This document shows, one piece after another, positions 7,844 to 41,285 of a DNA stretch of 64,000 nucleotides. The DNA comes from Candidatus Bathyarchaeota archaeon (GTDB lineage: Archaea; Thermoproteota; Bathyarchaeia; Bathyarchaeales; Bathycorpusculaceae), in contig JAOZHS010000002.1 in the NCBI GenBank assembly GCA_026014745.1, positions 372,001-436,000 of the forward strand, given 5' to 3'. The notes beneath the pieces were generated by a model, which had not been told where the DNA came from, did not search any database, and was given only the letters and a program-made list of their open reading frames with translations. Each line of letters begins with the position of its first letter. Within the stretch, counting starts at the first letter, position 1. Both the position numbers and the translations under genes were made by a program.

Positions 7844-8203
7844 ATGTATGTGGCTAAACCACAAATAACCCAAGCATTCCCAAGCTTAGTGCTAGTCCTG
7901 ATGGGTTTGATGGATTGTGCAACCACAGCAGTAGGCGTCATCTACGCAGGCGCAGTGGAAGCCAACCCAGTCCTTACAGGGTTAGTTAACACAAACATCG
8001 CAGGGTTTATGCTGCTAAAGATAGGGGCAACCCTCTTCACAGCCGCAAGTTTAATTCTAGCCAAAAGAGCCCTAAACCAAAGTGAAAACAAGGAAAGCAA
8101 AAACTACAAGATTTTCCAAGCACTGTTCAAAATCAGCTACGTTGGATTATTGTCTTTCATGATAATTGTTGTGGTAAATAATCTGCTGGTTCTTTTTGCT
8201 TAA
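7844..8203 (+). CDS. DUF5658-like small membrane protein
   Basis: The 119-aa protein has three hydrophobic helices (about residues 13-33, 50-70 and 95-118). The first helix contains MDCATTAVGVIYAGAVEANPVL, which fits the D-x-x-T-T ... G-x-x-E-x-N-P signature of the DUF5658 family of archaeal and bacterial membrane proteins of unknown function. The conserved Asp, Thr pair and Glu lie in or at the membrane and might serve transport or catalysis; this is inference. A CCTCT/AGAGG inverted repeat lies just before the start at about 7823-7838. It converges on the TrmB gene, with a 4-bp overlap. Confidence 0.6.
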   Translation: MYVAKPQITQAFPSLVLVLMGLMDCATTAVGVIYAGAVEANPVLTGLVNTNIAGFMLLKIGATLFTAASLILAKRALNQSENKESKNYKIFQALFKISYVGLLSFMIIVVVNNLLVLFA

Positions 8204-8988
8204 GGGCTTGTTTTCTTTGAGTTCCACAATTTGTCATAATATGTTGTGGCTAAAAATATCATGTTAGGGCTGTTAGACCATAAACTCGGCAGTAACTCAT
8301 GCCCCCGAACGGACAGGGTGAGTTGTTGACGGTCAAAAATGTGCATGCCAAAATGGATAGGACCATCATAATACCTCGCGTGAAAGAAGGGCTCATCCAG
8401 CAGAGGTTCCCAAAACACGAACGCTGAATCTTGGCTTTCAGGTCTATGCGTGATTAAGCGAGTTTCGATTTGCCGCTGTTTTAGCATACCTCTAAGAAAG
8501 TTCCATTCATCCCCAACTTTGCTGGGAACGCCCCGAAGAGGCACGAGGATATCTAGGGTGTTTTGGCATTGTTTAGTCATTTTTTCATGTAAACGAAGAA
8601 GAAGAGACAACTCGGAGGTAATCACAAACTGTGTGTCTTCCTCAGAAGGGGATACTTTTTCTTCCATTGAAGAGAGGCTCTCAACTAATGAACCTGACCG
8701 TTTGAGCAGACTGGTGTATTCTCGTTTTTTATAGTCAACCAAAATGGAAACCGCATTCTGAATCGGCGTAGCGATATACATTGTGGGGGAACCGATTATT
8801 TTTTCCACCAACCCCAACTTCTGCAACGTCGGCATAATCCGATAAATATCCTGCCGAGCCACAGTCGAAACACGAGCAATCGTCTTTGCATCAGACTTCT
8901 TCAACTTAACCAAAGTCAAATACGTCAAAGACTGAACGTAACTCAACCCAAAATCCATCAAAGTCTGAATATCGTCTTCTTTAATCAT
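8200..8988 (-). CDS. TrmB-family transcriptional regulator (copy 1)
   Basis: The 262-aa protein has an N-terminal winged helix of TrmB type: LMDFGLSYVQSLTYLTLVKL, then DIYRIMPTLQKLGLVEKIIG, residues about 6-66. A short coiled-coil linker (70-110) is followed by a C-terminal sensor-like domain with MHIFDRQQLTLSVRGHELLPSLWSN. In TrmB proteins this C-terminal half binds sugar or other ligands. It lies 29 bp downstream of a paralogue on the same strand and no ribosome binding site is visible at its own start. Its DNA-binding half is identical in DNA to that of the paralogue, while the C-terminal half is only about half identical in protein. Confidence 0.85.
   Translation of the reverse strand: MIKEDDIQTLMDFGLSYVQSLTYLTLVKLKKSDAKTIARVSTVARQDIYRIMPTLQKLGLVEKIIGSPTMYIATPIQNAVSILVDYKKREYTSLLKRSGSLVESLSSMEEKVSPSEEDTQFVITSELSLLLRLHEKMTKQCQNTLDILVPLRGVPSKVGDEWNFLRGMLKQRQIETRLITHRPESQDSAFVFWEPLLDEPFFHARYYDGPIHFGMHIFDRQQLTLSVRGHELLPSLWSNSPNMIFLATTYYDKLWNSKKTSP
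8792..8970. repeat. 179-bp identical repeat, copy 1 (HTH-coding)
   Basis: These 179 bp are identical, base for base, to 9592-9770 and encode the TrmB winged helix of the two tandem regulators. The match ends abruptly at both sides. Identity at silent positions points to recent duplication or gene conversion limited to the DNA-binding half. Confidence 0.95.
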
Positions 8989-9017
8989 AGCGCATCTACT
9001 TTAGGAGGTTGTCTTTT

Positions 9018-9788
9018 TTACCATAATTTATTGAAGTAGGTAAGAGCCAACTGGACTATGTTAGGATTGTTAGACCACAAACTGGGAAGGATTTCATGCT
9101 TACCTACTGATAAAGTAAATTGTTTACGGTCAAATATATGCATAAAAACTGGTATAGGCGCAGAAGTGTATTTTATTTGGAATAGAGGGTTCTTTAGCAG
9201 AGGCGTCCAAAACATAAAGTAAGTCTCGTTGTCTTGGGGCTTTTCAGTTATCAACCTAATTTTTATTTGATTTTTTTGCCTAACGGTTTCGTTGACGCGG
9301 AACCATTGTTCCTCTACTTTTCGGGAATATTTACTCAAAGGCATCATAATGTCAAGTGTGCTTTGGCAATCCGAGGTTAATTTTTCGTGCAGTTTAAGCA
9401 GAAGGGACAACTCGGAAATAAGTACAAATTGAGTGTCATCAGCCCCCAAAGAGATCTCTTCATCACTTTTGGGGAAATTATTGATCAGCAAATCAGTTTT
9501 TTCGATTAAGGTATCGTATTCTCTTTTTTTGTTTTCTAAAAGATTAGTGATTGCATTATTTATGGGGGTTGCTCGATATAATGTGGGGACGCCGATTATT
9601 TTTTCCACCAACCCCAACTTCTGCAACGTCGGCATAATCCGATAAATATCCTGCCGAGCCACAGTCGAAACACGAGCAATCGTCTTTGCATCAGACTTCT
9701 TCAACTTAACCAAAGTCAAATACGTCAAAGACTGAACGTAACTCAACCCAAAATCCATCAAAGTCTGAATGTTCTCATCGCTAATCAT
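9018..9788 (-). CDS. TrmB-family transcriptional regulator (copy 2)
   Basis: The 256-aa paralogue of the downstream regulator has the same TrmB winged helix at residues about 6-66, a coiled-coil linker, and a C-terminal domain ending MHIFDRKQFTLSVGKHEILPSLWSN. A strong GGAGGAG ribosome binding site precedes the ATG, unlike copy 1, so this is probably the first gene of a two-gene unit. The identical DNA-binding half predicts that both regulators recognise the same operators, while their diverged C-terminal halves may sense different ligands. The large surface-protein gene just upstream on the same strand is a plausible target, by position only. Confidence 0.85.
   Translation of the reverse strand: MISDENIQTLMDFGLSYVQSLTYLTLVKLKKSDAKTIARVSTVARQDIYRIMPTLQKLGLVEKIIGVPTLYRATPINNAITNLLENKKREYDTLIEKTDLLINNFPKSDEEISLGADDTQFVLISELSLLLKLHEKLTSDCQSTLDIMMPLSKYSRKVEEQWFRVNETVRQKNQIKIRLITEKPQDNETYFMFWTPLLKNPLFQIKYTSAPIPVFMHIFDRKQFTLSVGKHEILPSLWSNNPNIVQLALTYFNKLW
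9592..9770. repeat. 179-bp identical repeat, copy 2 (HTH-coding)
   Basis: Second copy of the 179-bp sequence at 8792-8970, with no differences found when the two were read side by side. Confidence 0.95.
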
Positions 9789-9939
9789 TAGGTATTCTCC
9801 TCCATTTTATGGAGATTCGTTTTTTAAGCGTTTGCTATATTTCTCTGACTCCCAATTTTCCAATCAAAAAAAATTGTATAAAACTCTGAATATTTTCATT
9901 AAATACTTGATGCTCAAGGGCTTCGCAAAACAATTAAAT

Positions 9940-9978: not shown

Positions 9979-12432
9979 TTATGGCCGTTTTCTAAGTAGC
10001 AGAAGCGCTAAGACCACGCCAACTAACAGGATTGCAACGATTATTCCAGCGACTGCTGGAACAAAGTACATGTCAGCCATGGACTGTGGTGGTTCTGGGG
10101 AAGGTGTAGCTGTGGGTGCGGGGTCTGCAACGACGAAAGCGGTTTCAGAGTGGGCTGGCCAGTAAGAGTTGGATCCTGCGAAGGTAGCGTATACGGTGTA
10201 TTTGCCTGAAATGTCAGGACACCATTCATAGCTGTAGAAGCCGTTGGCGTCGCTGGTTGTTTCACCGATGTTGCGGTAGTTTCCGTTGGCGTCAAGGACG
10301 TCAAGGGTTACTTTAACACCAGTTGCGTTGGTTGGTCGTTCGCCTTGCTGGTAGACGTATTGCATCCAGTCGGACATGCTTTCGTCAGAGACTGCGGGCA
10401 CTCCTTCTGGGAAGCGGCTGGTTTGTACGTTTTGGCTTGTGCCTACTGAGATGTCAGTGACTGTTCCTTTGATTAGAACGCTTGCGGGCATGGTAACTGA
10501 AACGTCGGGTGCATCGACAGTAACTTGGCTTGGGCCTTTACCGAAGCAGTAGATGAAGTTGTCGTATTGGCTGAATGTAACGAGTTGTCCGTCAGCGACT
10601 GCTGGTGCTGCGAACCAACCGTTTTGGCGCCAAATTTCATCGCCTGTTGTTGCGTTAACACAAACGATTTTTGCGCCGCGTGTCAGTGGGTGGCTTGGGC
10701 TGTGTTCACCGGTGGCAGCATAGATTTTTCCGTCAACCGCAACGTGCATACCTGCTGCGAGAGGCCATGTGCCGTAAGGTGTTTCGTAGCCTGAGTCGCC
10801 AATGTAGTAGTTCCAGTCGTTGTTTCCAGTTTCCATGTCGTAGCAATGGATCATGCCGTCGTATGCAACTGCGTACAGTTTGCCGTAAGCAATCACTGGA
10901 CTTGAAGCACCAAGACCGTTAACGCTAGTGGTGTACATACCCCAAGCGTTTTCATAAGGTTCAGTGGGGCCCCAAATCTTTTTACCAGTGGTGGCATCAA
11001 AGCCGTACCATTGCATTGTTTCCTGTCGGAACCATGCGAATTTACCGTCAACTTCTCCTGTGAAGAAGAAGTTTGCAAATGCTGAAGCTGAGCTTGTTTG
11101 GTTAAAGGTGAAGAGTAGGCGTCCGTCTTCTGTGCTGTAGCCTGTAACAACAATCGAGCCGTTCACAACTGTGTTGGCACAGATTATTGTGTTTTTACCT
11201 AATTGAGCGATGCCGGGTGATCCAGGTACGTCAGTAACAGTGTTGTTCCATTCAATACCCTTGGACCAGTCAATTCTTGCGCCTGCAACAGGTCGCCATT
11301 GCCAACCATAGGGGTTACCTGGGCTGTTTGCGACTATGCATTTGGTTGAGTTCCACTTGAGTACCCAGTTGTTTGCACCGCTAACTATGTAGCCAATTAG
11401 GTTGCCGTTAGCATCGATTGTGAATCTTGCTCCGCTGGTAGCGTTAACGATTTGTAGAATTTCAACGCCGGTATTTGCATCATACATTTTGTAGGTGCTT
11501 CCAGACATTGACCAGAGGTATGGGAATGCGCCGTGTTGGTTGGGGCAGTCAAAGTTCAAGACTTGTCCGCAACTAATGGTTGTACCGTTTTGGAACCAGA
11601 GTTCTTCGCCAGTAGCCATGTCAATACATCTCAAACCCAAGTTTGATGATCCGCCTAAGCGTGCGTTGACGTAAATCTTGCCATTAATGATAACAGTGTT
11701 TGACCATTTGTTTTCATAAGAAGCGCCACTGTAGTAGCCTATGTCGCCTAATTCGGAACTTGCAAGACCGCCGATTTGTAACTCTTTTGTCCACATTATG
11801 TGGGCGCTGTCTGGTGCACTTCCGGTTTCTACCCAATTGGTTAAACCGTTAACAGAGGCACCATAGAGGGCGGCTATGCCGTACCAGTTGTTTGCGATGC
11901 TTACCCATCCGCGGTTGGTTGCTTGGATAGGTCTAGTCCAGTATTCGGTTGGCAGAGGTGCATTAATCACATCAGGGATTGGCTCATCTTGGACTTCTAA
12001 GATAAGTTCTGGTGATTCAGCGGCTTTCATGGTGAGGTCGCCGATGACTTCACCCGGATAAGTGAATTGCAGAGTATAGTTGCCTGTTTGTTCGGGTGCC
12101 CAAGTAACGAATACTGATGCGACAGGGTCAGAATCTTCAGTAATAGTTTCAACACTGCCATCGGGTGCAGTGATGGTTAAAGTGTAGTCTTGCCAGACTT
12201 TGGTAGGTTGACCGGGGTAGGCAGTTGTCGGGACTAAGTCGAGCCACATGACGATTAAGGTATTTTGGCCGACGCCGACAGGGTTGGGTCTGATGGATAG
12301 GAATGCGTATGGTTGACGTTCAGTAGCTGCTGATGCGAATGGTGCTACAAAAGCCATCATAGAGAGCAAAAGTAAGCCTGTGATTGCGATTGCTAAGACT
12401 TTAGTTTTTTTATTAATTTTTTCTGTATTCAT
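9979..12432 (-). CDS. PQQ-like beta-propeller surface protein (paralogue 1)
   Basis: The 817-aa protein has a signal peptide (about 1-35), an N-terminal Ig-like domain, and the hinge PLPTEYWTRPI. It then has a propeller with repeated blades of the form G(E/K)LYAVAYDGMIHCYDMETG and AKIVCVNATTGDEIW, typical of PQQ/BamB-like WD-related propellers. After CFGKGPSQVTVDAPDVSV comes a carboxypeptidase-regulatory-like beta-sandwich (GVKVTLDVLDANGNYRNIG), a short Pro-rich stretch and one C-terminal membrane helix with an RKRP tail. It is displayed outside the cell; quinoprotein activity is not implied. A paralogue with the same domain order is at 38607-41285 on the other strand. Confidence 0.82.
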   Translation of the reverse strand: MNTEKINKKTKVLAIAITGLLLLSMMAFVAPFASAATERQPYAFLSIRPNPVGVGQNTLIVMWLDLVPTTAYPGQPTKVWQDYTLTITAPDGSVETITEDSDPVASVFVTWAPEQTGNYTLQFTYPGEVIGDLTMKAAESPELILEVQDEPIPDVINAPLPTEYWTRPIQATNRGWVSIANNWYGIAALYGASVNGLTNWVETGSAPDSAHIMWTKELQIGGLASSELGDIGYYSGASYENKWSNTVIINGKIYVNARLGGSSNLGLRCIDMATGEELWFQNGTTISCGQVLNFDCPNQHGAFPYLWSMSGSTYKMYDANTGVEILQIVNATSGARFTIDANGNLIGYIVSGANNWVLKWNSTKCIVANSPGNPYGWQWRPVAGARIDWSKGIEWNNTVTDVPGSPGIAQLGKNTIICANTVVNGSIVVTGYSTEDGRLLFTFNQTSSASAFANFFFTGEVDGKFAWFRQETMQWYGFDATTGKKIWGPTEPYENAWGMYTTSVNGLGASSPVIAYGKLYAVAYDGMIHCYDMETGNNDWNYYIGDSGYETPYGTWPLAAGMHVAVDGKIYAATGEHSPSHPLTRGAKIVCVNATTGDEIWRQNGWFAAPAVADGQLVTFSQYDNFIYCFGKGPSQVTVDAPDVSVTMPASVLIKGTVTDISVGTSQNVQTSRFPEGVPAVSDESMSDWMQYVYQQGERPTNATGVKVTLDVLDANGNYRNIGETTSDANGFYSYEWCPDISGKYTVYATFAGSNSYWPAHSETAFVVADPAPTATPSPEPPQSMADMYFVPAVAGIIVAILLVGVVLALLLLRKRP

Positions 12433-12694
12433 TTATTTATTTCTCCGGAATAATTTTTCCGTGGCAACATAGTCGCAGGGAGTTCATTTAAGCGCTTGTA
12501 TAAAGGAGTACTTTAGACAGCTATAGCGTAGAACAAGATAACCGATAAAATGGTCTTTTTTACCGCTTCAGCCTCAAAACGTCAAGCATCCTAATATTTG
12601 TTAGGGGCAACCAAACACAAATCAAATATGTAGGTGCCTGATACATCTAAAACATAGCAGTTGCAAAACCCAAAATTAAAGAAACCCTTAACTG

Positions 12695-22947: not shown

Positions 22948-25560
22948 TTGTTAATTTTTGCTATTAAGAAGGTTCATGAATTGAATAAATCACTTGTAAG
23001 TCAAAGACTTGCGATTTTCTTCACAATAACAATCATAACCATAGTCCTATTAGCAACCCCCCCTTCGTTTGTACATGCTGAAACATACAGCTACATAACA
23101 CAATGGGGCACCTATGGCTCTGGGAACAGCCAATTCACCTCGGCCAGCAATATCGCTGCGGACAGTTCAGGAAATATCTATGTAGCTGACACAGGCAACA
23201 ACAGGATTCAAAAATTCAGCAGCAACGGACAATACATCACCCAATGGGGCAGCTATGGTAGCGAGAATGGCCAATTCAGCTCACCATACGGTATTGCTGT
23301 TGACAGTTTAGGAAACATATACGTAGTAGACCAAGGCAATAGCCGGATCCAGAAATTCACAAGCGACGGTACATACAGCACACAATTTGGCTCATCAGGA
23401 AGTGAGAATGGCCAATTCAGCTCACCATACGGTATTGCCATCGATAGCTCAGGAAATATCTATGTAGCTGACACAGGCAACAACAGGATTCAAAAATTCA
23501 GCAGCAACGGACAATACATCACCCAATTGGGTACCTTTGGTAGTGAAAACGGTCAATTTGCTTTTCCTGAGGCTGTTGCAGTTGATAGTTCAGGCAACGT
23601 CTATGTAACTGATACAGGCAATAATCGGGTTCAGAAATTCACAAGCGACGGTACATATAGCACACAATGGGGCTCCTCAGGTAGCGAGGATGGACAATTT
23701 ACCAGTCTTGGGAGTTTAACTGTTGATAGCTCAGGATATGTCTATGTAACGGATAAAAGCAGTAGTCGAGTTCAGAAATTCAGTGGTGATGGTGCTTATC
23801 TTGTACAGTTTGGCTCCGAAGGTAGCGGGGACGGCCAGTTCAGTGAACCTTTTGGCATTGTTGTTTATTCAGGAAGTATATATGTGGTTGATACAAATAA
23901 TTTCCGGGTTGAGAAATTTACTATAGTAGACCCAACAACGCCTACTCCAAGTCCTTCTCCGACAGCCACACCGACGCCAACCCCGACGGTTGCTCCTACA
24001 GCTACGCCTACACCTTCACCGTCTCCATCACCCTCACCGAGTCCAACTCCTTCACCAACGCCCTCACCAACTCCAACACCAACACCTACGGCTACTCCAA
24101 CACCTCGACCAACACCGTCTCCCACTCCAAGACCGACTGCAACCCCAACGCCTAGTCCCACAGCTTCACCTACACCATTGCCAACAGCTGCACCTACTCC
24201 AACACCAATTCCAACACCAACATACAATTACGTAACACACTGGGGAACTAGAGGTAGTGAAAACGGCCAATTCCTCTCGCCAACAGGTATAGCTGTTGAC
24301 AGCCAAGGATACGTGTACGTAACTGACTATACTAATAGTCGTGTTGTAAAATTCAGTGCCACTGGTTCATACGTCACTCAATGGAACCTCACTGGTAACG
24401 GAGGCAAATTAAACAATCCTTATGGTGTTGCTGTTGATAGTTCTGGGAACGTCTACGTGGCTGACTACGGAAATAATAGGATTGTAAAATACACTAACAC
24501 GGGCACGTACATTTCTCAATGGGGTTCAGAGGGAAGTGGAACTGGCCAATTTAGCCACCCTACGGGTGTTGCTGTTGATAGTTCTGGGAACGTCTACGTG
24601 GCTGACTCAGGCAATAGTCGGATTCAAAAATTCACCAGTGATGGTACATACATTTCTCAATGGGGTTCCAAGGGTACCGGAACCAACCAATTCGACCGCC
24701 CTATTGGTGTTGCTGTTGATAGCTCTGGAAATGTTTACGTAGCTGACTCGATATCGAACGTATACAAGGGGTCCGCATCAAACCTACGGATTGAGAAATT
24801 CACAAATACCGGCACATACATTACGCAATGGGGCCCCAAGGTCAGTGGGTCTGACGATTTCTCATTCACGAATGCTGTTGCAGTTGATAGTGCGGGATAT
24901 GTATATGTATCTGACTTATTCAGAAGTAGTGTTTACAAATTTACCGGCGATGGCACATTTATTACGCGCTGGGGCGAATATGGCAGTAAGAACGGTCAAT
25001 TTAATGGCAATGTTGGCGTTGCTGTTGATGCCTTTGGTTACGTGTATGTAACTGACACAGACAATTCTCGTGTCCAGAAATTCTCGCCCTCAACAACAAT
25101 GCAAGCAACAGCAAGCAATGGCGCGACAGTTGATATAAAAATCACTGGAACTGTAGACAGCTCTCAGATGTCTAACATTAAAATCACAACAAATCAAGCA
25201 ACAAAAACAACAACGCTAAGCTTTACTGTTACGGGTCAAAGTGGAACAACTGGATTTGGCATTATAACTATTCCTAAAAGTGCAGTAGCCTATGGAACAA
25301 CACCCGTAGTTAGCATTGATGGAGCAAAAATCAAAACCCAATTCTATACGGTAGACACAGACAACTATTATGTCTGGTACAACACCAACTTCAGTACACA
25401 CACTATAACAATGGAATTCACAGCTGACGCACCAACCCAATCCTCGCTTGCCACCAACATCATCGTTGCATGCGCCGTCATAATTTTGGCTGTATTGGTG
25501 ATTGGAGTTTTTATGAAGAGGAGAAACCGCGAAATAACTAAGAATTGGATAAAGCATTAA
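22948..25560 (+). CDS. Giant NHL-repeat surface protein with Pro/Thr stalk
   Basis: The 870-aa exoprotein starts at TTG 22948 (AGGTAGGTG upstream). It has a signal segment (about 24-46), a first six-bladed NHL propeller, a Thr-Pro stalk of about 95 residues (near 331-428), a second NHL propeller, a juxtamembrane beta domain and a C-terminal helix with KRRNR. Blades follow [20 protein letters not shown] and QKF(S/T)SDGTY. NHL propellers bind proteins or glycans; in archaeal cell walls they probably serve adhesion. Several blades are near-identical in DNA (for example 23163-23245 and 23444-23526), showing recent internal duplication. The juxtamembrane module is shared with the gene at 2682-3929. 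Confidence 0.85.
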
Positions 25561-33480: not shown

Positions 33481-33628
33481 CAGGTTGAGCCTAAACCTCG
33501 ACGGCATACACTGGCTCTGTTCTTTAGCACTTTCAAAGTCGCTTTCTTTGATGTTATCTCCGTTGCGCTCTTTAGCAGTTACTTCAGATCAGTTTTCGTG
33601 TCACCGTGAAGCCTGTTCCTCAACCTGC
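33481..33628 (-). ncRNA. Putative structured RNA, unit 1 of a three-member family
   Basis: Read on the minus strand, the unit starts GCAGGTTGAGGAACAGGCTT and ends GGTTTAGGCTCAACCTGC, so its ends form a 10-bp stem. Conserved inner blocks GAAYA-GCTTCAC and GGTTTAG(R) are shared with units 2 and 3, as is a central CTAAAG...GATAAC. A TATA-like TTATATC lies about 26 nt upstream. A pyrimidine-rich stretch after 33481 could end the RNA. No good ORF fits it. The rest of the 33171-33786 gap shows nothing else I recognise. Confidence 0.6.
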
Positions 33629-33650
33629 AAGAGACTACGCCCAAACATAA

Positions 33651-33657
33651 GATATAA
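33651..33657 (-). promoter_or_regulatory. TATA-like promoter of RNA unit 1
   Basis: TTATATC on the minus strand, with the following GGGCGTAGTCTCTTG kept between the two promoter copies. The distance to the terminal stem is the same (24 nt edge to edge) as for the promoter at 38412. Confidence 0.5.
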
Positions 33658-33742
33658 TTCTATGTTGTTGCGGCAAGCCACCCACGCTTAGGGCTGTTTT
33701 TTCATATCCAAACGGCAGGGTCATGCAGCAAAACTAATAAAC

Positions 33743-37891: not shown

Positions 37892-38087
37892 TCTTGTACA
37901 GGGACTGCCCAATTGAGTTGCTATAGACCTTACTGTCCTCCCTTGTTGGCGGGGATTTTTACTGGTTTTCAACATGCTAATGCGCTTGTTTTGCGCCAAT
38001 AGTGACCTACCCCCCTTAGGTTTCTGCATAGAACCACTAATAGGATCCAAATAGGCTACAAATAGAAAGGAATACCGTTAGCTTATA

Positions 38088-38246: not shown

Positions 38247-38388
38247 CAGGTTGAGTCAAAACCCCACGTTTTTTCTCTCATAAGTCCATAAGTTCTTTTC
38301 AGGTCCTTTCTTGACGTTATCTTTGTCAGGTCCTTTAGGAGTAGCTTATGGTTTTAAGGAGGTTTCGTGAAGCGTATTCCTCAACCTG
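38247..38388 (-). ncRNA. Putative structured RNA, unit 2 of the family
   Basis: On the minus strand the unit begins CAGGTTGAGGAATACGCTTC and ends GGGGTTTTGACTCAACCTG. The terminal stem CAGGTTGAG/CTCAACCTG has 9 perfect pairs. Inside, CCATAAG/CTTATGG gives a 7-bp stem and TGAC/GTCA a small central hairpin around AAAGATAAC. It is followed by unit 3 and preceded by TTATATC at 38412-38418. Confidence 0.6.
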
Positions 38389-38411
38389 CAAGAGACTACG
38401 CCCAACCATCG

Positions 38412-38418
38412 GATATAA
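38412..38418 (-). promoter_or_regulatory. TATA-like promoter of RNA units 2 and 3
   Basis: TTATATC on the minus strand, centred 27 nt before the first base of the unit 2 stem. The 17 nt just before the stem, TTGGGCGTAGTCTCTTG, are identical to those before unit 1. Confidence 0.5.
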
Positions 38419-38606
38419 CGATATGCTGCATCAACATGCTAGCCACAAATAAGCTCCACAAATAGCCAGTATACATAATAAAAAAGCTAGTTTTTTTGAA
38501 TTTTATACAGACTATTTAGCGGTTAATTATAAATACACCTGAATTTGATAACAGACTTATAGCAAGCAAGTTAACTTGTTTGCAAAAAACGAAAGGAAAT
38601 CTGAAA

Positions 38607-41285
38607 ATGCATAAAAAACAGTCTATAATTTTGGCATTATTTCTAATGCTGATAATGTCTCTTAGCTTTATTCCCCTGCAAACAGCACGCAACGTAGGAT
38701 ACAAGTATCCCACTTGGTGCTACTGCGTTGTCAGCAACGACGTAATTGGCGTAGGGCAAACGGAAAAAATCATCTTCTGGATCAACAGCGTACCACCCAC
38801 CGCAAACGGACAATACGGCGACCGATGGAAATTCACAGTCGACATCATGAAACCTGACGGAACCAACGACACCATAGGACCAATAACTTCCGACTCAGTG
38901 GGAAGCGGCTACACCATGTACGTTCCCGCAGAACCCGGCAACTACACGGCTGTCGTGAAATTCCCCACAACCGTAATCACAGGGTTACCCTTCAAACCCG
39001 GCGTGCCAGACGCCCAACAACAAGGTTACGCATCCATCAACGACACCTACTACGCAAGCATAAGCGACCCCACACCATTCACAGTACAGCAAGACCCTAT
39101 ACCGCTTTGGCCTGAAACACCCCTACCAAGCGCATACTGGACGCGACCAATCAACAGCGCCAACATCTACTGGTACACCCTCGCTGGCGACTGGCTAGAC
39201 ATGGTTGGCTCATTTGGAGGCAACAACAACGCCCAAACCAATGGCCCAACAACCAGCTTCGGATATGGTCTAGCCCCTGAAAGCGCCCACATAATGTGGT
39301 CAACCCAAGGATTTACCGGAGGCATCATGGACGAAAGATTCAACGACTACACCTACGTAACTTCACACTACGGCGGATTATCCTTCTCGCCCCTAGTTCT
39401 TGACGGCAAAATCTACTATAATGCCATAAACCCCCAAATGAGCGAAGGCTGGTACTGCCTAGACCTCTACACGGGCAAGCAACTCTACTTCCACAACACC
39501 ACCGGCCCAGTAACAGGAGTCGGAGGCGGCATGTTCGACAACTACGGCTCCATCCCAACAGAGGCACTCTCATTCGCACAGATATACGACCCCGAATTAG
39601 ACAACCAAATGGGCGGATACCCCTACCTATGGAGCATGTCAGCAGCTACCCCAAACACTTGGATGATGTTTGACGCATACACAGGCAGCTACATCTGCAG
39701 CATAAACAACGTCCCATCAGGAACCAACTTCTTCGGCATGACCTCAGCATGGGGCACCGGAGTATACGGCAAAGACGGAAGCATACTCAGATACAACATT
39801 GCAGGAACACCCGGCCCAAGCCCATTCGCACCCGCTGGACCACCCTTCTACCTGCAATGCTGGAACTCAACCCAAGCTATCTGGTGGAAAGGCACCCAAC
39901 AAATGTACCAAAAAGGTGACTACTCAGGATTCTCAAGCAACAACTATGCCAGCTGGAGACCATACCTCAACTACACCTATGACGGAAGCCACGCCTACTC
40001 CCTCAATGTCTCGCTTCCATGGACATCATCATCAGGCAGCATCCAAACCATACGCGAAGACAAATACGTCATCGGCGGAGCTGCAGGCAGCAACAACGAA
40101 CAAGGCATCACACCAGGATACCTCTGGGCACTAAACTTAGACCCCTCCAAAGGCGCATTAGGCGCACTACTATGGAACGTAACATTCACGCCACCCTCTT
40201 CTGCAGGCAACAAAACCGTAAGCATGGGAACCGTTGACCCCGAAGACGGAGTCTTCCTATTCTCTTGCACCCAGACCCGAACCCGATGGGGCTACGACCT
40301 CGCAACGGGAAAACATATCTGGCAAAGCGAACCTGAAGAACCCATGAAATACTACGGCATGAGCAACACCAACATCTACGAAGGCAAACTCTACTCAGGA
40401 ACCTACCTCAACGGCGGCATCTTAGTCTGCTACAACATAACCACCGGCGAAGTACTCTGGAAATATGAACCCAAACAAATCGGCTACGAATCACCCTTCG
40501 GAGACTTCCCCGCAGAAATCGCATGCATCGCAGACGACAAAATATTCATCTACTCCAGCCCACTCTGGCGCACACAACCGCTCTGGCGTGGTTCATATGT
40601 ACGCTGCATCAACGCAACCGACGGCACAGAAATCTGGAAAATCCTCCACTACGGCAACGTAATCGTCGCAGACGGCTACGCGATAGGCCTCAACTATTAT
40701 GACAACAAAATCTACTGCTACGGCAAAGGACCCAGCCAATTAACCGTCACAGCCCCCGACGCAGGCGTAGACCTCGGCAAATCAGTCATTATCAGCGGCA
40801 CAGTCACCGACATCTCACCCGGCACCAAACAAACCGAGCAAGCAGCCAGATTCCCCAACGGTGTACCCGTAGTTTCAGATGAAAGCCAAGAAGCATGGAT
40901 GGAATTCGTGTATGAGCAGCAATCCGAACCCACAAACGCAACTGGCGTCGAAGTACAAATCGACGTGATAGACGGCAACGGCAACTTCCGCAACATCGGC
41001 ACCGCCCTCACAGACGCATCAGGCTTCTACAGCTTAAACTGGTTCCCCGACATCCCCGGCAAATACACCGTTAGCGCAAGCTTTGAAGGCTCCAGAGCCT
41101 ACTGGCCCTCCCACTCGCAGACAGCGTTTGCAGTTGACGAAGTAAGCAGCCAACCAACCCAGCAGCCCATAACTGCAGAGCCCCAATCCGACGCATACCT
41201 CATCGTAGGTGCAGCAGTAGCCATAATCATCGCCATAGCAGTCGTGGGTGCACTCATTCTGGTAGCTGTGAAAAAACGCCCATAA
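38607..41285 (+). CDS. PQQ-like beta-propeller surface protein (paralogue 2)
   Basis: The protein is 892 aa from ATG 38607, with AAAGGAAA upstream; the frame is open from TTG 38580. It has a signal peptide (about 1-27), an N-terminal Ig-like domain, the hinge PLPSAYWTRPI, a long propeller with blades like GKLYSGTYLNGGILVCYNITTGEVLW, then CYGKGPSQLTVTAPDAGV, a carboxypeptidase-regulatory-like sandwich, and a C-terminal membrane helix with KKRP. The order matches the gene at 9979-12432. It has a larger, aromatic-rich insert in the propeller. It likely forms part of the outer envelope; ligand unknown. Confidence 0.82.
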   Translation: MHKKQSIILALFLMLIMSLSFIPLQTARNVGYKYPTWCYCVVSNDVIGVGQTEKIIFWINSVPPTANGQYGDRWKFTVDIMKPDGTNDTIGPITSDSVGSGYTMYVPAEPGNYTAVVKFPTTVITGLPFKPGVPDAQQQGYASINDTYYASISDPTPFTVQQDPIPLWPETPLPSAYWTRPINSANIYWYTLAGDWLDMVGSFGGNNNAQTNGPTTSFGYGLAPESAHIMWSTQGFTGGIMDERFNDYTYVTSHYGGLSFSPLVLDGKIYYNAINPQMSEGWYCLDLYTGKQLYFHNTTGPVTGVGGGMFDNYGSIPTEALSFAQIYDPELDNQMGGYPYLWSMSAATPNTWMMFDAYTGSYICSINNVPSGTNFFGMTSAWGTGVYGKDGSILRYNIAGTPGPSPFAPAGPPFYLQCWNSTQAIWWKGTQQMYQKGDYSGFSSNNYASWRPYLNYTYDGSHAYSLNVSLPWTSSSGSIQTIREDKYVIGGAAGSNNEQGITPGYLWALNLDPSKGALGALLWNVTFTPPSSAGNKTVSMGTVDPEDGVFLFSCTQTRTRWGYDLATGKHIWQSEPEEPMKYYGMSNTNIYEGKLYSGTYLNGGILVCYNITTGEVLWKYEPKQIGYESPFGDFPAEIACIADDKIFIYSSPLWRTQPLWRGSYVRCINATDGTEIWKILHYGNVIVADGYAIGLNYYDNKIYCYGKGPSQLTVTAPDAGVDLGKSVIISGTVTDISPGTKQTEQAARFPNGVPVVSDESQEAWMEFVYEQQSEPTNATGVEVQIDVIDGNGNFRNIGTALTDASGFYSLNWFPDIPGKYTVSASFEGSRAYWPSHSQTAFAVDEVSSQPTQQPITAEPQSDAYLIVGAAVAIIIAIAVVGALILVAVKKRP

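Follow-up and report, generated by a model that had tools for sequence, protein, structure and literature searches.

Evidence that gene conversion affected only the DNA-binding half of two tandem TrmB-family regulators beside a secreted beta-propeller gene in a Bathyarchaeota archaeon

RESULTS

Tandem regulator genes and an identical tract

Two neighboring open reading frames, A and B, on the minus strand of the window (the whole stretch of 64 kb that was analyzed) encode regulators with a TrmB-type helix-turn-helix (HTH) and are separated by a spacer of 29 bp (Table 1). They are 61% identical overall. Their longest identical run, found at an offset of 800, is exactly 179 nt long and takes in residues about 7 to 66 of each protein, most of the PF01978 HTH domain (residues 10 to 76). 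A and B differ in codons 1 to 6, in the spacer, in the upstream DNA, and in everything beyond residue 66, and the edges of the tract are sharp: identity is 62% over positions 8771 to 8791, 67% over positions 8971 to 8988, and 31% in the spacer. Identity at third codon positions is 0.98 to 1.0 within the tract but falls to 0.37 over the C-terminal part, and the C-terminal halves share 49% amino acid identity. The preliminary description of this DNA had reported HTH-coding parts that are identical even at silent sites beside halves that have strongly diverged, and both observations hold. No third copy of the tract was found elsewhere in the 2.7-Mb genome (three contigs), where it occurs only twice, and a search of the tract against plasmid DNA gave no match.

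Table 1. Coordinates of the features discussed, numbered from the first letter of the window
Feature	Position	Strand	Remarks
Gene A, TrmB-HTH regulator	8200..8988	-	262 aa; TrmBL2-like architecture; downstream member of pair
Gene B, TrmB-HTH regulator	9018..9788	-	256 aa; upstream member of pair
Identical tract in A	8792..8970	-	179 nt; residues about 7-66; winged HTH including recognition helix
Identical tract in B	9592..9770	-	179 nt
TATA-like/left flank TTTAAGCGTTTG (plus-strand reading)	9823..9834	-	Putative B-A promoter
Secreted PQQ-like beta-propeller gene, proposed target	9979..12432	-	817 aa; PF13360; paralogue family
Extended candidate element	12485..12523	+	TATA-like TTTAAGC on beta-propeller side; 22/31 consensus positions
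Candidate operator palindrome	12496..12520		TTGTATAAAG-GAGTA-CTTTAGACAG; sole perfect genome match to pattern

Other repeats were also observed. A dispersed repeat of 70 to 165 bp in this genome, with copies about 76 to 93% identical, lies at positions 37943 to 38056 of the window and at loci L082 (6421 to 6534), L068 (1691 to 1854), and L028/L031. An 81-nt direct repeat (79% identical) occupies positions 33605 to 33685 and 38366 to 38446 of the window, 4.8 kb apart, and positions 23092 to 25083 hold an array of 141-nt (47-codon) repeats with units 65 to 79% alike.

Protein architecture

Both proteins match the TrmB family profile PF01978 (8.9e-14 for A and 7.7e-14 for B; 51.5 and 51.7 bits against a cutoff of 25.6). 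A profile of 20 relatives (A4) aligns over positions 2 to 260 of 264 with residues 1 to 263 of TrmBL2 (5bpd), a whole-length match (3.6e-12), and the full chain of winged HTH, dimerization helix, and C-terminal domain that characterizes TrmBL2 is present in the A/B family. The relatives' profile also matches PLD-fold proteins across the C-terminal half, and the active phospholipase D motif HxKxxxxD is degenerate in both proteins (HFGMHIFD in A and PVFMHIFD in B). Past the HTH there is no fitting Pfam match to a sugar-binding domain at an E value of ≤1, and the proteins end where TrmBL2 ends. Scores against the NCBIfam equivalogs for TrmB/TrmBL1 sugar sensors are 26 to 46 bits, compared with cutoffs of 600 to 650 bits. 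The AlphaFold model of A has a mean pLDDT of 55, which is too poor for a fold search. The proposal that the two proteins sense different ligands is not supported, as their C-terminal half matches TrmBL2, a protein without the sugar-binding subdomain found in TrmB and TrmBL1 (PMC4877046); the C-terminal halves are thus better described as putative effector domains, TrmBL2-type and PLD-like, than as shown ligand domains.

In TrmB, the dimerization helix comes after the winged HTH (PMC4158304). The corresponding region of A and B (alignment columns 81 to 100) is 35% identical in amino acids, and since it lies outside the tract and has diverged, the two proteins may prefer homodimers over heterodimers.

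Evidence for a recent conversion event

Several lines of evidence favor gene conversion. First, third-position identity in the HTH minus that in the C-terminal part averages 0.01 over 2,211 pairs drawn from the family (standard deviation of 0.077). It is 0.61 for A and B and 0.28 for the next-highest pair, leaving A/B as the sole strong outlier. Second, purifying selection is insufficient, because a pair of relatives with 98% amino acid identity in the HTH conserves just 78% of its third positions. Under such protein constraint the probability of 60 identical third positions out of 60 would be 0.78^60, or about 3e-7, and both chance and purifying selection were therefore rejected as causes of the tract. 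Third, A and B are sisters in the tree of C-terminal halves (support of 100/100), and their identity in this region compares with 36 to 42% for the next relatives. The silent sites of the C-terminal part look saturated, so that, with sister C termini, the duplication is old and the homogenization recent. An island of identity that includes silent sites, set within older sister paralogues, is what defines ectopic gene conversion, and its restriction to the DNA-binding half, as had been proposed from first inspection, is well supported by these sequence comparisons.

A search of 91 family genomes yielded no orthologous A/B pair. Twelve further TrmB pairs from the relatives and this genome, tandem or clustered, showed no conversion; their longest identical runs are 7 to 25 nt. 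The concerted evolution of the 5′ half for which the preliminary description had suggested looking in orthologous pairs was not seen among the pairs compared, and recurrent concerted evolution was rejected. Because the other pairs show only such short runs, the tract looks like the product of one recent short conversion event, not a habit. Its direction is weakly indicated by composition: GC3 is 0.55 to 0.57 in the tract, 0.45 in the remainder of A, and 0.40 in the remainder of B, and the family average of GC3 does not differ between HTH and C-terminal parts. As the tract is closer to the remainder of A than to that of B (z of 1.3 against 2.3), A may be the likelier donor.

A tandem pair in another genome of the same genus (G031, locus L073) is likewise located downstream of a beta-propeller gene and has identical 14-amino-acid recognition helices (IDRANVYRTIKQLQ), with C termini 34% identical and DNA that has diverged without conversion. 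This pair provides independent support for tandem regulators having one specificity. In genome G015, a 6.3-kb contig carries a duplicated TrmB gene, with one copy at each end (L083, 1 to 757 and 5566 to 6322); the copies are 93% identical over 757 bp, and this contig may be repeat bounded.

Alternative explanations

The conversion may be real but selectively neutral, an accidental exchange of a short tract that changed nothing in regulation, between genes whose HTHs already recognized the same site. We regard this as an even proposition. Short-patch gene conversion is known in Sulfolobus (PMC4471258), the event seems to be single, without recurrence in other tandem pairs, and the G031 pair indicates that a shared specificity can persist in the absence of conversion. 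Nothing decisive stands against neutrality, which bears only on the consequence of the event and is compatible with both the event itself and a shared operator.

The remaining alternatives dispute the conversion itself. If recombination with another paralogue had supplied a recent tandem duplicate with a different C-terminal half, an identical 5′ half beside a diverged 3′ half would be equally expected. This is improbable, since A and B are nearest to each other in their C-terminal halves and codons 1 to 6 and the upstream DNA differ too, so that the tract is an island within two diverged genes; replacement of the C-terminal half was rejected on the sister relationship.

Slightly less probable again is homogenization of both HTH regions by assembly or polishing. 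The source organism, like its relatives, is probably known from metagenome assembly only, but the unique flanks are only about 60% alike, past what polishing homogenizes, and both copies lie in complete open frames in a genome of three contigs. A collapsed repeat is not indicated, because the tract occurs just twice in this genome. Extreme constraint on the DNA itself (by an overlapping antisense gene, an RNA, or an internal operator) would explain identity at silent sites but is effectively ruled out, because the HTH DNA of the closest relatives is just 57 to 62% identical to the tract, without such constraint in the family.

Association of TrmB-type regulators with beta-propeller genes

The 817-aa protein encoded next to the pair has, as read by eye, an N-terminal signal-like segment and a C-terminal hydrophobic segment. 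The A/B pair is located downstream of its gene on the same strand, whereas the closest relatives of A and B are oriented divergently from their beta-propeller genes. Paralogues of this PQQ-like secreted protein number dozens per genome, and a second one in the window lies at positions 38520 to 41285.

This genome has about 35 beta-propeller places and 32 TrmB-HTH genes, 16 of which are located ≤2 kb from a beta-propeller gene (2.4 expected; maximum of 10 in 2,000 shuffles). The same holds for 18 of 31 such genes in genome G062 (2.9 expected; shuffle maximum of 10) and for 8 of 22 in G031 (1.2 expected; shuffle maximum of 8, with two contig sizes approximated). Half of the TrmB-HTH genes adjoin a beta-propeller gene, often divergently or in arrays (e.g., at L070, L074, and L078). 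A search of open-license literature found nothing on point for beta-propellers in Bathyarchaeia, although earlier reports may exist.

Operator elements in relatives

In relatives, regulators with the recognition helix of A and B (ARQDIYR) are divergent from secreted beta-propeller genes and have a common palindrome, TTTAAGCnTTTGTAACAAGTGnnnCTTCTGACAA, and the consensus of the element in these intergenic regions is nnTTTAAGCnTTTGTAACAAGTGnnnCTTCTGACAAAnn. Scored as present at ≥20 of 31 consensus positions, the element accompanies 13 of the 14 regulators whose helix is of the ARQ[DE][ILV]Y type versus 4 of 25 others (Fisher 3.5e-6), with a consensus built mostly from loci of the same ARQ type as the tested group. 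Among the four exceptions, one regulator lacks part of its N terminus, and another has an ARQ gene on the other side of the same intergenic region. Regulators with a second helix type, A[PS]QDVYR, are accompanied by a different element, TAAGNNANCCGACTACCAA, at four of four distinct loci (L007, L038/L086, L070, and L074), and this element was found at no other locus among 95. A third possible element, seen by eye as TTTTTAAAAA followed by GTGCA...TGCAC, occurs beside RAHxY- or RSSTY-type helices in intergenic regions (L070 at 8497 and L076 at 4431 and 8152).

Candidate operator in the window

The best match to the relatives' consensus on either strand of the window is the extended element, which lies at a distance of 53 bp from the start codon of the adjoining beta-propeller gene and has the orientation seen in relatives. 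One of 30 simulated 64-kb windows reached a score of 22 anywhere, and we consider the match good but not overwhelming. The pattern TTGTNNNAAGN5CTTNNNACA has a single perfect match in the 2.7-Mb genome, the core TTGTATAAAG-GAGTA-CTTTAGACA; the pattern was fixed after the window site had been seen, so that the relatives' consensus is the fair test. Four further sites depart from the pattern at one position: two lie immediately upstream of beta-propeller genes, the third is downstream of a beta-propeller gene, and the fourth is inside an unrelated open reading frame. The window site was absent among the best candidates of a whole-genome profile search (R1), which found other sites in this genome. 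No intact operator was found in B's own promoter, beside TTTAAGCGTTTG.

The candidate palindrome is directly upstream of the TATA-like TTTAAGC. TrmB-family sites upstream of BRE/TATA elements go with activation (PMC4158304), and by analogy activation would be the likelier sign here, with BRE occlusion possible instead.

DISCUSSION

An old duplication, a recent conversion of the HTH, and a candidate shared operator controlling the beta-propeller gene probably together explain the locus, and we hold this joint explanation with reasonable confidence. We propose the following. (i) A and B would descend from a TrmBL2-like regulator that was devoted to the neighboring secreted beta-propeller gene and was long ago duplicated in tandem. 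(ii) After their silent sites had become saturated, a single nonreciprocal exchange of at least 179 bp, as the sequences show, copied the winged-HTH segment of one gene onto the other. (iii) A and B would most likely bind the candidate palindrome and control the beta-propeller gene. (iv) As the dimerization helix and PLD-like domain were left unconverted, separate homodimers could answer different signals at one operator.

Now that A and B have the same recognition helix, a common operator is most likely, and the prediction that they act on one operator set is plausible: it gains from the candidate operator before the adjacent gene and from the G031 pair with identical helices. Control of the adjoining gene by both regulators through one candidate operator is the best reading of the sequence. 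Counting against it, A and B have the same orientation as their proposed target and are downstream of it, whereas the relatives are divergent, and the promoter of B lacks an intact operator.

The nearest characterized homologue is TrmBL2 of Pyrococcus furiosus and Thermococcus kodakarensis (PDB 5BPD, 5BOX, and 5BQT), which resembles A and B in length (about 262 aa) and domain order; all share a winged HTH, a dimerization helix, and a PLD-like domain, without a sugar-binding extension. TrmBL2 is an abundant chromatin protein that can bind DNA nonspecifically (PMC4877046). Unlike TrmBL2, A and B are two of about 32 paralogues in this genome and adjoin a beta-propeller gene that is preceded by a specific candidate operator. 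With TrmB/TrmBL1 (PDB 3QPH) they share the TrmB-type HTH and palindromic operators near BRE/TATA elements (a candidate in the case of A/B), and the TGM of TrmBL1 has an N5 spacer (PMC4158304). In contrast to TrmB/TrmBL1, A and B lack a C-terminal sugar-binding domain, and the candidate operator differs from TACTN3AGTA and TATCACN5GTGATA. The exchange itself resembles short-patch conversion in Sulfolobus (PMC4471258) in being a short nonreciprocal tract between homologous sequences, but the A/B tract closely matches one functional module, the DNA-binding domain, in genes otherwise about 57% identical in DNA. The open-license literature searched held nothing on point about gene conversion between DNA-binding domains of prokaryotic regulators, although earlier reports may exist.

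Of these observations, the cassettes that pair regulators with beta-propellers and have helix-specific operators are the more novel. They may represent a large lineage-specific system of TrmBL2-like regulators and secreted beta-propellers in which helix and operator have codiversified, with one code for each cassette class, and in which conversion rewired a second regulator onto the operator of one cassette, a view that we put forward tentatively, at somewhat less than even probability.

If true, the A/B pair would be a clean case in which copying a DNA-binding module between paralogues gave a promoter a further regulatory input in a single step. Such natural rewiring by module copying would place a second, differently tuned regulator on one operator. 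To our knowledge, few regulators have been studied in the uncultured Bathyarchaeota. With dozens of regulator/beta-propeller pairs per genome, the cassette family may offer a route to regulator-operator codes and to the assignment of targets in these organisms.
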